Shown piece after piece: positions 717-9,168 of a stretch of DNA of 24,720 bases. Source of the stretch: a virus; IMG/VR virus record IMGVR_UViG_3300015245_000074, positions 1 through 24,720 of that record, one strand, 5' to 3'. The notes beneath the pieces were generated by a model. It ran no database searches and was not told where the DNA came from. It saw only the letters and a list, made by a program, of their open reading frames with translations. A program made the translations under genes and the position numbers. Positions within the stretch are counted from its first letter, which is position 1, and every line of letters starts with the position of its first letter.

Positions 717-1275
717 GCTTCCAGGTCTTTCCGCGCCTTGCGCAGCAAATCGTGGATACCGTGACGCCGAATAATTCCGACAATTCTACGCCTGTTTTTG
801 AAGATGATCGTATCGTCCTTACGTCTCCCTCGGTCAGCAATGAATTGCCATTCTCCGAACCCCGCAGGATGTAACGCCTTCCTTTGGCATCCATATCTGC
901 GACGTTATCGGCATCTGTCCCGAGAAAAAGGTGGCTAGGCCGCAAGCACGGGCGATTGTCGCAATGGTGCAAAACATGCAATTCGTCTGGGATTGGGCCA
1001 ACATAAATTTCGTAAGAAGATCGATGCGCGCGATAGTCGCGACCTTTGCACTTTACGACCCCATAACCACCTATCGGGTCAAGTGTATGCCGCCACTCCC
1101 AACACCCATTCGGCATTACCTCCCATCCGCGATAAAAAAACCAATCATAAACCGTCATCGCCATGCGGCATTTCAAAGAGCAGTGCGTGGCCCTTTCCTG
1201 TCTATATGGCTTTGGCTCAAACTCCTGTTCACACTTAATGCAAACTTTTTTTATCCGAGGGATTTTGGCGTTCAT
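706..1275 (-). CDS. HNH endonuclease with N-terminal zinc finger and C-terminal HTH
   Basis: This 189-residue protein looks like a free-standing homing-type endonuclease. It has a zinc knuckle (C12, C15, C32, C36), then an HNH_3-type core with LHVLHHCDNRPC (residues 99-110) and H115, followed by the usual HLFLGTDADNVADM stretch. A helix-turn-helix segment of the kind that follows such nucleases is at about residues 147-187 (LLTEGDVRTI, ELFGVTVSTI). Its ATG overlaps the methyltransferase stop (ATGA), and its end overlaps the DnaB start. It is therefore wedged between two replication-related genes, a common location for phage homing endonucleases. The family call is firm; homing activity is inferred. 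Confidence 0.88.
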   Translation of the reverse strand: MNAKIPRIKKVCIKCEQEFEPKPYRQERATHCSLKCRMAMTVYDWFFYRGWEVMPNGCWEWRHTLDPIGGYGVVKCKGRDYRAHRSSYEIYVGPIPDELHVLHHCDNRPCLRPSHLFLGTDADNVADMDAKGRRYILRGSENGNSLLTEGDVRTIRSSSKTGVELSELFGVTVSTICCARRGKTWKHVD

Positions 1276-2315
1276 TCTGCGGCCTCTAATTCGTCGTCGA
1301 AGTCGCCGCGAGAAACCTCCAACTCTGGGAACGGCTGGCGGTCAGGGTCATCGAGTTCGAGCGCCCCTTGTTCTTCTTCCTTCCGACCCTCGTAAGCGAC
1401 CTGAATATTCTTGATCGCTTGCCGGTAATAGGATGGCTTGAGTTCGATACCGATCGATCGCCGCCCGTTTTGCAACGCACCGTAGACCTCGCTCCCCACG
1501 CCCATAAATGGCGTCAGAACGGTTTCGCCCGGGTTGCTCCACAGAACGATTGTCCGGTCGATAACGTCAAGCTGCAGCGGATGAACGTGCTTCTCGTCCT
1601 CATCGTCTTTGGCTTGCCTGAACGGCAAGACGCGGCCGAGGCGGATATCATCCCAGAATGCCGAGGCGTATTGTCGCCAAATCCAATGGGAATAGCGGTT
1701 TTCGATTTGGTTGCCTTGGTGGCCGCGATATTTCAGCAATTCAGCCGGGACCGGCCGAGCGCCAGCATATTCCATCAGTCCCGTAGGGTGCGTGATCGGG
1801 ACCTTGTTCTGCCCGTCACGACGAAACACCAGCATGTAATCCGCCGACGCCACGCTGCAGCGGGACGAATCCTCGACCAATGATCGATGGGCCAGGTTCT
1901 TCGCCATCGTCCGGTTGCGCACTGCCAGCGGTTCTTTCCATACCGCATACCGCGCGATGAACTTGAACCCGTGCTTTTCGTGCAGGCGGATGATGTCGCC
2001 GGGGAAGTCGATCAGATGGTCCGTGCCGCTGTTGCCGGATGGAACATCCATGCAGTGAACCGCCGTCATCCGGCCCGGCACCGTCAGCCGCGCCAATTCC
2101 TTCACCACAAACCCGTAATGGGCAAAAAACTGGTCATAGTCGGCACAGTTGGAAAGGTCCCGCTCCGAGCTCGAATAGCAGAACAGTCCGCCGAACGGCG
2201 GCGAGTAAACCGACAGGTGAATGGATTTTGCCGGCAACTGTCGCATCACCTCGACACAATCGGCATTGTATGCCGCGAATCGGTCGGTCAGCTTTTGGTC
2301 AATGACTAGAGCCAC
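1272..2315 (-). CDS. DNA methyltransferase, beta-class, N4-cytosine/N6-adenine type
   Basis: This 347-residue protein is an AdoMet-dependent amino-methyltransferase. Catalytic motif IV is SPPF (residues 38-41), close to the N-terminus. The AdoMet-binding motif is near the C-terminus: TPFMGVGS (268-275), followed by GIEL (289-292). HPLQLDVIDR (245-254) precedes it. This order (IV before I) defines the beta class. SPPF/Y is more typical of N4-cytosine enzymes than the DPPY of adenine enzymes such as CcrM, but specificity cannot be read from sequence. It starts at GTG, overlapping the helicase gene by 10 bases. No cognate restriction endonuclease is adjacent, so it is probably an orphan enzyme for anti-restriction or regulation. 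Confidence 0.9.
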   Translation of the reverse strand: MALVIDQKLTDRFAAYNADCVEVMRQLPAKSIHLSVYSPPFGGLFCYSSSERDLSNCADYDQFFAHYGFVVKELARLTVPGRMTAVHCMDVPSGNSGTDHLIDFPGDIIRLHEKHGFKFIARYAVWKEPLAVRNRTMAKNLAHRSLVEDSSRCSVASADYMLVFRRDGQNKVPITHPTGLMEYAGARPVPAELLKYRGHQGNQIENRYSHWIWRQYASAFWDDIRLGRVLPFRQAKDDEDEKHVHPLQLDVIDRTIVLWSNPGETVLTPFMGVGSEVYGALQNGRRSIGIELKPSYYRQAIKNIQVAYEGRKEEEQGALELDDPDRQPFPELEVSRGDFDDELEAAE

Positions 2316-4657
2316 GAGGGTATCCCTTTCTGTTCTGTGAATTTCATACTGCGATCGACCTCGACCGCCCCATTCATGTGGCGGATCAAATCCGCGAACA
2401 TCTTGTCGGCAGCGACAGCCTTCCGCTGCAGGTTGGCGAGAACACCCTTCTCACCCTCCGTCGTCACGATATCGGAAATCACCTGATGCTTCTGACCGAA
2501 GCGCCAGCAACGCCGGATGCTTTGATAGTAAGCCTCAAAGCTGTGCGTCGGGAAGGATACCGAATGCGCACAATGCTGGAAATTCAGGCCCCATGCGCCA
2601 ATCTTTTCTTTCGTCACCAGCACGCGAGCGCGACCCTCGATAAAGGCCAGAAACTTTTCTTCCTTGGCTTCGTCGCCGTCCTGCCCGCTGATTTGGATAG
2701 CGTCCGGGATCATCTTTTCAAGGTGATTGCCCTCATCATTGAGCGAGCACCACAGGATTGCCGGATTGCCGGTTTTGTTCACCAGCGAGGCGGCTTTTTC
2801 GCAGCGTTCTACGATAGTTCGCCGCCGTTCCTCGCGTTGTTCGGTAAGCCCGAAGGCCGGCAGGGCGAACAGCATCCCATCCGGGTTGGTTTGGGCATCA
2901 ACCATATGCTGGCGCTCGACCAATGGCGGGAGATTGAACGGGCCATCCTCAAATCCGAGGTCGGAGGGTTTGCGCACCGCCCGCGCCCATGAACACACCC
3001 ATTGCCAGAACGGGTCCTCAGCGTGACCCTTGAACCGCCACTTAGCGTTGTCGTCGAGTTGGGAAAACTTCCGGCCACCGTGGCGATAGACCGATGGCTT
3101 GATCGAATTTCCTTGGTTGTTTTTGAAGAACCGCGCCAGCATATCCATGTACCCGAGATACCCAAGCGCCTCGCTGCTGGTGCCGAGTTCGATGTATTCG
3201 TTTGGGCTTGGCGTAGCCGTGCAAAGCAAGCGGTACCGCATCTTGCGCATGAAGTCGGTTATCTGTTGCCGTCGCACGCCATCGAACGATTTCAGAATCG
3301 CCGAATTGTGGACGAGCAACCCACCGACCGAGAAACTTGGATGCCGTGTTGCGCCAATGTCATAGAAATAAAGTTTTCCATCGGCATCCCGGTATCGATC
3401 CAAGTCAGGATGTCCCAATTCCAAAACCTCAATACTGTCCACCCGAGTGAAATCAGCATCTCGTCTTTCTTCTGATCCAGATGCTTCCGCGATCTGTGAG
3501 AGTGACCATCCACCTCGATTGCGATTTTCAGTCCTTCGTTCGCCAAATCTATTTTGTAATTCGTCGGATACCCCGGCTTTAATCGGCCCAGTGACAAAGC
3601 ATATTCCGCCGTCCAATTCCCTGACATCACAGCTTTCAAAGCGGCCTGAGCCTCGGTCATCGGATGACCATTCCCCCCACGCACGGAAGGTTTGTGGTTC
3701 CTCTCTTTCAATGCGCGGGACAGTTTCGCGCGGGTTTCCGGAAGGTGCATGCGATTTATCGTGGAAAACCTCGCTAACTCCGCTTGAGCTTTTGGCTTCC
3801 CAGAATTCAGCCACGACGATCTGGATTGCCCGCGCCTCGCAGCCACCTCCGGAGTATGCACCTTGGCCAGATGCTCTGGCCGGCTCATCCGCCATTTCGC
3901 TGAGCAAGATCGTCCGCAAAATCTCGTTTTCGCCGCTTGGACACAACGAGGGGCGAAGTCCTTCTTGCACCATTCGCACGGCCGCAGCCGTTGCCAGTAT
4001 TTTTGATCCTGGCCACAAATCCATCGCCCCGCGCCATCCCGATTGGGTGAAGAATGGATGATTGGGGCTACAGACGACGGATTGACCGCCAACAGAGACT
4101 TTGACCGCATAAGGAACTTCTCTCCTGTGAACCTCTGAAACGCGATCAACTCCAACTGCATTCAGAATGTAGTCCCCCTCTCGAATGTTTTCAATATCGC
4201 TCTCCGAGCGCCGGCCATCGCAATCAACGACATCAATCTTCGTTCCGGCAGCAAAGCATTCGTCGCACACCATCCCTGAAAAATCCTTCGGGTCGAAAAG
4301 GTGCAGCTTCTCGTAATTGGCGACGATAATTCCCGGCTTGGCGCCGCCGGTTTTGGATATCTTGCACTCAACCCCGAACTTCTCGCCCTCCCGAACCGTC
4401 TGCGCCCCGACCGCCAGCGGCGTCAGCACCAGCACCGGCTTATTCGTCTTGCGGACCACGTTCTCGGCCCAGGTCAACTGCATCAGCGTTTTGCCAAGGC
4501 CAGTATCCGCGAACAGAGCGCTACGGCCCTTCAATACTGCCCACGAAACCAACGACCGTTGGAAATCAAACATTTCATCGGGAAAATACTCGGCCTCGAA
4601 CCCGTCATAGGTTCCGAGTTGCGTTTTCTTGTCGAGAAAATCCTCATATTTACCCAT
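2306..4657 (-). CDS. SNF2-like DNA helicase interrupted by an intein
   Basis: The 783-residue ORF comprises an SF2/SNF2-type helicase of about 465 residues plus a 318-residue intein (residues 134-451). The extein shows Walker A ADTGLGKT (50-57), a DExx box VCDE (130-133) continuing as SAILKSFDG after the intein, motif III LLCTATPSPNEY, and motif VI QSIRRCWRFGQ near the C-terminus. The intein splits the DExx box directly after DE, so ATPase activity would require splicing to VCDESAILK. The gene overlaps its neighbours by 8 and 10 bases, next to the DNA methyltransferase. Helicase-methyltransferase pairs are common in phage early operons. The exact substrate is unknown. Confidence 0.9.
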   Translation of the reverse strand: MGKYEDFLDKKTQLGTYDGFEAEYFPDEMFDFQRSLVSWAVLKGRSALFADTGLGKTLMQLTWAENVVRKTNKPVLVLTPLAVGAQTVREGEKFGVECKISKTGGAKPGIIVANYEKLHLFDPKDFSGMVCDECFAAGTKIDVVDCDGRRSESDIENIREGDYILNAVGVDRVSEVHRREVPYAVKVSVGGQSVVCSPNHPFFTQSGWRGAMDLWPGSKILATAAAVRMVQEGLRPSLCPSGENEILRTILLSEMADEPARASGQGAYSGGGCEARAIQIVVAEFWEAKSSSGVSEVFHDKSHAPSGNPRETVPRIEREEPQTFRAWGEWSSDDRGSGRFESCDVRELDGGICFVTGPIKAGVSDELQNRFGERRTENRNRGGWSLSQIAEASGSEERRDADFTRVDSIEVLELGHPDLDRYRDADGKLYFYDIGATRHPSFSVGGLLVHNSAILKSFDGVRRQQITDFMRKMRYRLLCTATPSPNEYIELGTSSEALGYLGYMDMLARFFKNNQGNSIKPSVYRHGGRKFSQLDDNAKWRFKGHAEDPFWQWVCSWARAVRKPSDLGFEDGPFNLPPLVERQHMVDAQTNPDGMLFALPAFGLTEQREERRRTIVERCEKAASLVNKTGNPAILWCSLNDEGNHLEKMIPDAIQISGQDGDEAKEEKFLAFIEGRARVLVTKEKIGAWGLNFQHCAHSVSFPTHSFEAYYQSIRRCWRFGQKHQVISDIVTTEGEKGVLANLQRKAVAADKMFADLIRHMNGAVEVDRSMKFTEQKGIPSWL
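3292..4161 (-). CDS. Endonuclease (zinc finger + NUMOD3-like + DUF559/Vsr-like) nested in the intein in another frame
   Basis: This 289-residue ORF is on the same strand as the helicase but in a different frame, and almost all of it lies within the intein DNA. It shows a zinc finger (C62, C65, C82, C86), then a basic linker with NUMOD3-like repeats (PETRAKLSRALKERNHKP). The C-terminal domain looks like DUF559/Vsr-like nucleases: YKIDLA with D205, IAIEVDGHSH with E216, D218 and H222, D229, and LGWTVLRFWN. It is probably the homing endonuclease of the intein. A second ATG at 4110 has an AGGAG about 11 bases upstream and may be the real start. Its stop falls just beyond the intein end, inside extein sequence. 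The domain call is good; expression is inferred. Confidence 0.72.
   Translation of the reverse strand: MQLELIAFQRFTGEKFLMRSKSLLAVNPSSVAPIIHSSPNRDGAGRWICGQDQKYWQRLRPCEWCKKDFAPRCVQAAKTRFCGRSCSAKWRMSRPEHLAKVHTPEVAARRGQSRSSWLNSGKPKAQAELARFSTINRMHLPETRAKLSRALKERNHKPSVRGGNGHPMTEAQAALKAVMSGNWTAEYALSLGRLKPGYPTNYKIDLANEGLKIAIEVDGHSHRSRKHLDQKKDEMLISLGWTVLRFWNWDILTWIDTGMPMENFISMTLAQHGIQVSRSVGCSSTIRRF
3305..4258 (-). mobile_element. Intein (Hint domain) in the helicase Walker B motif
   Basis: This is a protein-splicing element of 318 codons. Block A is CFAAGTKI, starting at the nucleophile C134 of the host ORF. Block B is SPNHPFFT with H200. Block F is RHPSFSVGGLLVHN, ending in H450-N451, and the next extein residue is S452. 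All residues needed for standard splicing are present. The roughly 170 residues between block B and block F do not resemble a LAGLIDADG or HNH domain. They are hydrophilic and rich in R, E, S and G, as expected if this stretch is constrained by another reading frame. The insertion point lies in the most conserved ATPase motif, a typical intein site. Confidence 0.93.
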
Positions 4658-7700: not shown

Positions 7701-8495
7701 TCAGGCGTTCCCGGCAGGCTTGGTTTGAGTAAAATAACTGTCGGCTTCCTCGCGCGTTTTCTCACGACTCGCGGCCAGCGTAGCTCGCGTCACCGGGGTT
7801 GCTACCGGTTTCCGGGGCGGCGCATCGGCCTTGGGCGCCTTCGCATCCGCCTTGGCGTCCTTATCCGCCTTCTTGATCAGAACGCGCTCAGCGGGCACGC
7901 CAGCGGCTTCCAGAAGGTCCGGCGTCTTGGGCTTCGCGGGCCGGCCGCGCCTGCCCTTGGGCTTGCCGACCTTCGCCGCAGCCTTTTTGCCACTCTTGTT
8001 CGCCTTCGCGGCCTTGGCGTCCAGCTTGCCGATGCCGGCCTTGACCTGGCGCTCCTGTTCCGCGTGGTAGCCATCCATGAAAGCGGCGTGCTGGGGCGTC
8101 GATGGATCATATTTCGGAACCGCAGCCTCATTCTTCATGGCCATGCTCTGACCCTCTCGGAATGCCCGATCAACGGCTGGCGTCCGGTCGCCATCGAGGA
8201 ACAACGAAAGCTGGTCGCCGATGTCGGCGTCGGAGTATGCGGCCGCGAGCAGACGGTTCGCCATCTCGGCCTTGAACTCGGCCTCGCCCTCGGGGGTTTG
8301 CAGCAACAGCGAGATTTTGATCTGCTGCAGGGAGAACCCAGCCTCTTTGGCCTCTTTCAGGTACTGGCGCCGCTTGGCCGCCGCCGACTTCGCCCGCTCG
8401 TCCAGCGAGTAGAAGTGGTCGCGCATCTCAATGAAGGTTTTCTTCATTTCTGGGTCAACGATGTTGTCGGTTTTCGCTACTTTGGTTCGGGCCAC
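7701..8495 (-). CDS. GapR-like / RMF-like phage protein with Lys-Ala-rich tail
   Basis: This 264-residue protein has a GTG start with AGAGG seven bases upstream. Residues about 15-95 (FIEMRDHFYSLDERAKSAAA, YLKEAKEAGFSLQQIK) resemble the DUF2312/GapR pattern of alphaproteobacterial nucleoid-associated proteins. Residues about 105-155 (AFREGQSMAM, then AAFMDGYHAEQ) resemble RMF-like segments seen in rhizobial phage proteins. The rest is a long K/A/P-rich, probably disordered tail containing GRRGRPAKPK, an AT-hook-like sequence. A DNA-binding role is likely. Both domain assignments are by eye and only moderately certain. Confidence 0.55.
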   Translation of the reverse strand: MARTKVAKTDNIVDPEMKKTFIEMRDHFYSLDERAKSAAAKRRQYLKEAKEAGFSLQQIKISLLLQTPEGEAEFKAEMANRLLAAAYSDADIGDQLSLFLDGDRTPAVDRAFREGQSMAMKNEAAVPKYDPSTPQHAAFMDGYHAEQERQVKAGIGKLDAKAAKANKSGKKAAAKVGKPKGRRGRPAKPKTPDLLEAAGVPAERVLIKKADKDAKADAKAPKADAPPRKPVATPVTRATLAASREKTREEADSYFTQTKPAGNA

Positions 8496-8498
8496 GGG

Positions 8499-8720
8499 TT
8501 ATCCTCTCGGTTGATACGATATTTTGGAGCACTCCGAACAATAGACGCTCCCGGAGGCGGCGTCTTTATCACAAAACCGGAAATCGGGCGCGCGGGTATC
8601 GCCGATTGGGAAACGGCACTGCGAATTATCCCCGCCGGGTGCCCCGCGCAGGGCCACGACCGCATCGAATACCTCGGATGGCACGACCTCGCCCTCGCAG
8701 TAAAACCAGACCTTGTTCAT
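8499..8720 (-). CDS. Small protein with GcrA C-terminal (sigma-interaction)-like domain
   Basis: This 73-residue protein carries the pattern of the C-terminal domain of GcrA, the alphaproteobacterial cell-cycle regulator: CRFPIGDTRAPDFRFC (C35-C50), then VYCSEC (C61, C64) and ISYQPRG at the end. In GcrA the last ligand is usually His (YCxxH); here it is Cys. The GcrA N-terminal DNA-binding HTH is absent, replaced by about 30 unrelated residues. In GcrA this domain contacts sigma-70. The phage protein could therefore bind the host sigma factor and compete with or mimic GcrA; that function is inferred. It begins immediately after the upstream stop (TAG-ATG). Confidence 0.72.
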   Translation of the reverse strand: MNKVWFYCEGEVVPSEVFDAVVALRGAPGGDNSQCRFPIGDTRAPDFRFCDKDAASGSVYCSECSKISYQPRG

Positions 8721-8894
8721 CTAGGCATCCAATATGAGAACTGCCGCTCTTTTGCGGCATCGGGCGATTTGCTCTGAGGATAATTCATCCATAAGGCACT
8801 CGTTCTCAAGAACGATCTTCGTATTTCCAGATCGGAGAGCGTCAAGATTATCCTGCAATTCCGGACAAATCCAAAGAGCTATTGTACGCCTCAT
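8721..8894 (-). CDS. Small hypothetical protein
   Basis: This 57-residue protein begins MRRTIALWICPELQDNLDAL and ends CRKRAAVLILDA. The ATG at 8894 overlaps the stop of the repressor gene (ATGA) and is preferred over an upstream start inside that gene. No family is recognised. It is the second gene of the leftward operon, in the position where many phages encode small regulators or host-takeover proteins. Confidence 0.65.
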   Translation of the reverse strand: MRRTIALWICPELQDNLDALRSGNTKIVLENECLMDELSSEQIARCRKRAAVLILDA

Positions 8895-9109
8895 GACGGG
8901 ACCTTCCATATATCGCCGAATTCGAGGCCGGTCAGCTTTTTGAGCTGCTCGGCGTATTTCAGGGGAATGCCAAGGCGCTCCCATGCGTCCACGGTCGCCC
9001 GGCTTTGGCCCAATGCCCTCCCCAGTCGGCTTTTGGCCCCGTGGCGCTTTCCATCCTCATAAAATTGCTTGAGGATTTTCTCATACCCAATCGTCCTGAT
9101 CTTTGCCAT
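8891..9109 (-). CDS. Cro/YdaS-like helix-turn-helix repressor
   Basis: This 72-residue protein is almost entirely one HTH domain: LGRALGQSRATVDAWERLG is the helix-turn-helix, followed by IPLKYAEQLKKLTGL as in YdaS/Cro-type regulators. It is the first gene of the leftward operon and is divergent from the rightward operon, the classical location of a phage switch repressor. No Shine-Dalgarno sequence precedes the ATG. The predicted promoter places the transcript start at or next to the ATG, suggesting leaderless translation. It probably binds the inverted repeats at 9114-9125 and 9156-9168. Confidence 0.85.
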   Translation of the reverse strand: MAKIRTIGYEKILKQFYEDGKRHGAKSRLGRALGQSRATVDAWERLGIPLKYAEQLKKLTGLEFGDIWKVPS

Positions 9110-9113
9110 GCAC

Positions 9114-9125
9114 GGTTTCTAAACC
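9114..9125. promoter_or_regulatory. Putative repressor operator overlapping the -10 box
   Basis: GGTTTCTAAACC is a perfect inverted repeat (5-base arms, 2-base centre) that covers the -10 element of the leftward promoter. Binding here would block transcription of the repressor's own operon. It shares GTTT...AAAC arms with the repeat at 9156-9168. Confidence 0.6.
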
Positions 9126-9144
9126 ATCCCCAATAAAATGTCAA
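9116..9144 (-). promoter_or_regulatory. Leftward early promoter
   Basis: Reading leftward there is a perfect -35 TTGACA (9144-9139), a 17-base spacer, and a -10 TAGAAA (9121-9116, four of six consensus bases). The ATG of the repressor begins seven bases after the -10 box, so the transcript is predicted to start at about the first base of the start codon. Confidence 0.7.
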
Positions 9145-9155
9145 AATAACTATTG

Positions 9156-9168
9156 CGTTTCCGAAACG
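9156..9168. promoter_or_regulatory. Putative second operator
   Basis: CGTTTCCGAAACG is a perfect inverted repeat with 6-base arms and one central base. It lies upstream of the leftward -35. It also lies between a weak rightward -35-like TTGCGT (9153-9158) and -10-like TATTGA (9176-9181), so it could control rightward transcription. Confidence 0.55.

Follow-up and report, generated by a model that had tools for sequence, protein, structure and literature searches.

A stand-alone GcrA sigma-interacting domain encoded near a Cro/YdaS-like gene in a phage

GcrA acts at m6A promoters; its sigma-interacting domain (SID) binds region 2 of sigma70 and a separate N-terminal domain recognises the methylated promoter DNA (PMC7403470). 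What would a phage protein do that consists of the sigma-interacting part only? The question is raised by a gene for a 73-aa protein at 8499..8720 (minus strand) of the window, by which we denote the whole stretch of DNA analysed, one complete IMG/VR record of 24,720 bases. Since its close relatives have 63-70 kb, the window is probably a genome fragment. The initial annotation had described the protein as a GcrA C-terminal domain in an early phage operon and had stated that GcrA contacts sigma70 through this domain. The latter statement agrees with the title of PDB entry 5YIX and with PMC7403470, which place the contact at region 2. The annotation further proposed that a free copy made early might titrate or redirect host sigma70 or block GcrA.

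Domain assignment and predicted fold

A Pfam profile search assigned the protein to GcrA (PF07750) with 41.4 bits and an E value of 2.4e-10, which is significant against the gathering cut-off of 26.9 bits. The match pairs protein residues 32-72 with profile positions 108-148 of 155 only. As it begins at profile position 108, the N-terminal m6A-GANTC DNA-binding domain (residues 1-45) and the linker are absent, and residues 1-31 of the phage protein form a family-specific N-terminus. The NCBIfam model of GcrA (NF050816) gave 36.6 bits, far under the equivalog cut-off of 280 bits that denotes a full-length, functional GcrA. When all 24,720 bases of the record were searched for the family, no second GcrA match appeared, and thus no separate DNA-binding half was detected. 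Sequence searches of the PDB with the protein matched GcrA chains only (5yix_B, E 3.3e-5; 7ye1_G, E 9.2e-5), and a profile of 27 SID sequences matched the same chains at 2.4e-22 and 9.7e-22, respectively.

The SID core (residues 32-72, QCRFPIGD...FRFC...YCSEC..ISYQPR) is encoded at 8505..8627 on the minus strand. All six residues that are invariant among the 27 SIDs (C35, P38, G40, D41, C50 and C61) are present, and Cys35, Cys50, Cys61 and Cys64 are putative zinc ligands. Position 64 is His in most of the 27 SIDs and Cys in the window protein, L053, L009 and L010. The pattern quoted in the initial annotation, CRFPIGD..PDF.FC...YC..C...YQP, is essentially correct, with its final Cys occupying the position of the GcrA His, so that the putative ligand set becomes C4 instead of C3H; this His/Cys swap suggests a zinc site. 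In the C[RK]WPIGDP motif, W is replaced by F and the subsequent P is lost.

In the AlphaFold2 model, residues 31-70 are fairly to very confidently placed (block pLDDT 83-92), and the first 30 or so residues are poor (block pLDDT 55-61). The SID of 5YIX ranks first in Foldseek (prob 1.00, E 0.021, TMt 0.69) and aligns in VIA-align with a Z score of 3.7 and an rmsd of 2.9 over 42 residues. Values of Z of at least 2 came from GcrA chains only, the best structural matches being 5yix_B, 7ye2_G and 7ye1_G, and no unrelated chain came near the GcrA scores. The modest scores reflect the very small size of the domain (about 48 residues). Model residues 24-70 align with residues 111-152 of 5yix_B; as this chain holds just 48 residues, the C-terminal tail that the phage protein lacks lies largely outside the ordered unit. 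The closest solved structures are thus two GcrA transcription complexes and 5YIX, a complex of the GcrA SID with sigma70 domain 2, and the protein is predicted to have the SID fold seen in 5YIX. Judged from the sequence and profile comparisons, the protein is the C-terminal, sigma-interacting domain of GcrA and lacks the DNA-binding half, and both parts of this description in the initial annotation were borne out.

Relatives, gene slot and host

Three phage relatives of the stand-alone protein are 90, 68 and 56% identical to it. The closest, found in a protein scan of viral contigs (L001, on the same contig as L053), is 90% identical over the full length. Together with L057 and L058 (the latter on the same contig as L006), the window and L053 make four stand-alone orthologues in a common gene slot, and the ORF is intact in all four. 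Comparison of the window with L053 gave a dN of 0.057 and a dS of 0.148, a dN/dS of about 0.4; dN is 0.23 against L057 and 0.51 against L058, with dN/dS well under 1, but dS is saturated for both. These comparisons indicate that the SID gene is a real gene under purifying selection. A chance match is ruled out by the profile scores, the orthologues and dN/dS. We also rejected a frame-broken full-length GcrA: the SID ORF begins with a start codon of its own, directly against the stop of the preceding ORF, its first 31 residues are conserved across four phages, and the family search detected no DNA-binding half in the record.

The first gene of the leftward operon (8891..9109, minus strand) encodes a small Cro/YdaS-like HTH protein, which matches the transcriptional regulators of phrog_409 (2.7e-4) as well as phrog_8008 (4e-5), and YdaS_toxin with 19.2 bits, under the cut-off. 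It is followed by a 57-aa ORF (8721..8894, minus strand) in ATGA overlap with the HTH gene, whose TAG directly abuts the ATG of the SID gene in an arrangement of translational coupling; a different small ORF takes this place in L001. Three bases (TAA CCC GTG) separate the SID stop from the GTG start of a gene for a 264-aa protein directly downstream (7701..8495, minus strand), a conserved neighbour with homologues in 11 viral loci. This protein has an AT-hook-like RGRP motif in the window and in L001, where AT_hook reaches a sub-threshold 14.6 bits. It had matches in 0 of 385 genomes, in a search that ran without a positive control.

Scanning with the aligned 264-aa neighbour gave the eleven loci, of which two had been found before. 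In four phages, the window among them, a stand-alone SID has a small Cro/YdaS-like HTH gene on one side and the 264-aa gene on the other; one more small ORF separates HTH and SID in the window and L053, and the SID and 264-aa genes are very closely spaced or overlap in all four. In two more distant phages (L062 and L063; 37% over 105 residues), the SID slot holds a 198-aa full-length GcrA with an N-terminal WTDERVSRLKKLW...RGAVIGKIHRLGL followed by CRWPFGDP...YCEFH. In the phage of L060, a full-length GcrA is encoded beyond the divergent region, on the opposite strand, and there is no GcrA or SID in L054-L056, L059 and L061. The SID gene is missing from about half of the related phages and is thus dispensable. 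The full-length GcrA in the same slot of L062 and L063 makes the stand-alone form look like a reduced phage GcrA and a GcrA-derived function likely. We infer that the stand-alone form arose when a phage GcrA lost its DNA-binding part; independent capture of a SID is a possible alternative origin.

Upstream of the operon, direct reading gave a sigma70-like promoter at 9116..9144 (minus strand) with TTGACA, a 17-base spacer and TAGAAA, which a stricter automatic scan did not report. TTGACA/TTGTCA stands at the equivalent place in L055, L056, L057 and L058. Two operator-like palindromes were also read directly, namely GGTTTCTAAACC at 9114..9125, overlying the -10 element, and CGTTTCCGAAACG at 9156..9168. 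The early operon proposed in the initial annotation stood as regards position, with the SID gene after a Cro/YdaS-like gene and downstream of such a promoter with its palindromes. Its early expression, together with the Cro-like regulator, is a reasoned inference from gene order and from a promoter that the stricter scan missed. Full-length GcrA genes also lie near Cro-like or repressor genes in L062 (2666-3262) and L069 (2620-3216), and early operons of alphaproteobacterial phages may commonly include GcrA.

GANTC is the site that CcrM methylates and that GcrA reads. The window has 34 GANTC sites compared to 80 expected from a Markov model and 114 in shuffles, and in the window as in its relatives GANTC is the most depleted of the 16 palindromes of its form. 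The ratios are 0.57-0.65 in the window's relatives and 0.04, an extreme avoidance, in a Rhizobium phage; the site is not avoided in a Pseudomonas phage (0.88) or an Alcaligenes phage (0.90). The avoidance fits hosts with CcrM and thus an alphaproteobacterial host. No GANTC site lies near the operon promoter of the window, and the relatives vary in this respect. The window also encodes an N4/N6 DNA methylase with an SPPF motif (1272-2315, minus strand). As a CcrM-like GANTC partner it is unsupported, since it matches CcrM over about 60 residues only, and it is probably not a GANTC methylase. The adjoining gene (2306-4657, minus strand) encodes an SNF2-like helicase with an intein/Hint-like domain at about residues 134-451 (sub-threshold in Pfam). 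Nested in it on this strand, but read in a different frame, is a 289-aa ORF (3292-4161) that has homologues in Vibrio phages and whose DUF559 (Vsr-like) endonuclease domain scores 45.2 bits (cut-off 20.6); the helicase may carry an intein whose homing endonuclease is encoded out of frame.

A domain scan gave 31 phage loci, nearly all full-length with the GcrA N-terminal domain, the exceptions being L006, L009 and L027. A DNA-pattern scan gave 80 stretches, of which 71 had a SID-like segment, 58 of these together with a recognisable DNA-binding domain. Complete short SIDs without the latter were found in L084 (the same as L006), L127 (L001), L138 (L009) and L130, with a 136-aa frame in L114 as a further candidate and several other SID segments incomplete at the end of the stored stretch. 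Stand-alone SIDs are thus a recurrent minority form. Most matches in cultured phages belong to the phiCbK group, of which phiCbK itself has a full-length protein. No prophage copy of the stand-alone form was seen among the matches listed from 385 alphaproteobacterial genomes, which all lay in frames of at least 119 aa; the first genome scan gave full-length GcrA paralogues only. No described stand-alone SID was found in the openly licensed literature searched.

Several observations were made alongside. L027 (3869-4330) encodes a 153-aa SID protein of another architecture, with no DNA-binding domain and a long Lys/Ala/Pro-rich, histone-H1-like tail. Rhizobium phage RHph_N65 (MN988536.1), whose genome has 4 GANTC sites compared to 107 expected, encodes a 74-aa protein annotated as hypothetical (gp40; L079 29098-29322, minus strand), a weak GcrA-SID candidate below the threshold (19.0 bits, cut-off 26.9) with four cysteines in the order of the SID. 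GcrA-family genes also occur in phages whose recorded host is Synechococcus (L004 1084-1695, OM868079.1; and PP438432.1); as GcrA is an alphaproteobacterial protein, this host assignment may be doubtful, perhaps owing to non-axenic cultures. In a control genome, that of the archaeon Sulfolobus acidocaldarius, the PF07750 model scored above its cut-off.

Proposed function and alternatives

The gene product is the sigma70-binding domain of GcrA only, and it would be made early and alongside a Cro-like regulator. It would fold as a small SID, probably stabilised by zinc, and dock inside RNA polymerase on the primary sigma factor of the host, at region 2. Binding to sigma70 region 2 seems probable to us. 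Without a DNA-binding domain, the protein would not be targeted to m6A-GANTC promoters, and a free SID that still binds the surface used by GcrA would compete for that site. The occupied sigma70 site would keep host GcrA off the polymerase and reduce GcrA/CcrM-dependent cell-cycle transcription, and ordinary sigma70 promoters, including the GANTC-poor ones of the phage, would stay working. We hold competition with host GcrA to be tentative, at somewhat under an even chance, and the whole explanation, in which the SID would displace host GcrA by binding sigma70 region 2 within the holoenzyme, is put forward with the same reserve. Slightly more tentative still is the idea that such a region-2 binder, descended from a phage GcrA that lost its DNA-binding half, is a natural dominant-negative GcrA that uncouples the methylation-dependent cell-cycle programme of the host during infection. 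We counted in favour of displacement the Pfam match restricted to the SID, the fold matches, the six invariant residues, purifying selection, the slot in L062 and L063, GANTC avoidance, and the binding of GcrA itself to sigma2 with its action at m6A promoters (PMC7403470). Against it we counted the change of W to F with the lost P, the new and poorly modelled 31-residue N-terminus, and the absence of the gene from about half of the related phages.

An activating role would begin with the same contact. The protein may be a Crl-like cofactor that binds sigma70 region 2 and stabilises the holoenzyme or open complexes to the gain of phage promoters, without touching DNA. Crl is an activator that binds sigma region 2 but does not contact DNA (PMC6917491), the sigma2 binders known so far activate transcription (PMC7403470), and full-length GcrA, itself an activator, occupies the same slot in L062 and L063. 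However, GcrA, unlike Crl, activates by means of an extra DNA-contacting domain (PMC6917491), which is absent here, and Crl is not among the sequence or fold matches, although this is weak evidence. We consider this role unlikely. Because the phage avoids GANTC, a pure blocker would cost little at its own promoters, and we therefore prefer the competitor reading.

It is likewise improbable that sigma70 binding has been lost, leaving a repurposed zinc ribbon or the decaying remnant of a phage GcrA. Cys replaces His as the fourth putative zinc ligand in two of the four members, WPIGDP has become FP[IL]G and lost its final P, and L058 has not retained the ISYQP segment. However, the W/F position varies in full-length phage GcrAs too, a Cys/His exchange preserves a zinc site, and the SID remains the best fold match; purifying selection and the four intact ORFs speak against decay. 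A split GcrA, in which the SID would recruit RNA polymerase to phage promoters jointly with another phage protein that binds DNA (the Cro/YdaS-like or the AT-hook-like 264-aa protein), is the least credible and very doubtful: the SID gene does adjoin the 264-aa gene in the four stand-alone phages, with the RGRP motif in two of them, but the 264-aa gene occurs without an adjoining SID in L054-L056 and L059-L061 and beside a full-length GcrA in L062, and is thus independent of the SID, and the AT-hook match is sub-threshold.

Full-length phage GcrAs were already known, and the stand-alone SID form may be the new aspect. If it binds sigma70, the 73-aa protein would be a genetically encoded GcrA inhibitor, a tool to separate the polymerase-binding from the DNA-reading role, and would offer a testable route by which alphaproteobacterial phages could seize control of the host cell cycle.

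Comparison with known systems

GcrA of Caulobacter crescentus (PDB 5YIX, 7YE1 and 7YE2) and the phage protein share the CRxPIGD...FxFC...YC..[H/C] core and the predicted fold. The phage protein differs in having 73 instead of 173 aa, in its C4 instead of C3H ligand set, and in lacking the m6A-GANTC-binding domain, the linker and the C-terminal tail. GcrA homologues have been reported in phages (PMC3556154, PMC6630229, PMC9437464) and were proposed to act as GcrA. The full-length ones of the phiCbK group (Gill et al. 2012, PMC3556154) and of Agrobacterium phage Atu_ph08 (PMC6630229) are likewise phage-carried members of the family; the phiCbK, L062 and L063 proteins keep the DNA-binding half, whereas the window protein lacks it.

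Like T4 AsiA, P23-45 Gp39 and P7, the SID protein would be a small early phage protein acting on the host primary sigma factor, and sequence searches with the 73-aa protein returned no anti-sigma or appropriator (AsiA-like) homology. Those three proteins target sigma region 4, as do all phage sigma-repressors in the review PMC7403470, whereas the known target of the SID is region 2; if it binds sigma70, the window protein would be a phage binder of sigma region 2 that has no DNA-binding domain, in contrast to the region-4 binders described there. Crl of E. coli is likewise a single small protein for which, as here, region 2 binding without DNA contact is proposed, but it acts on sigmaS and activates, and no relationship to the SID protein was detected.
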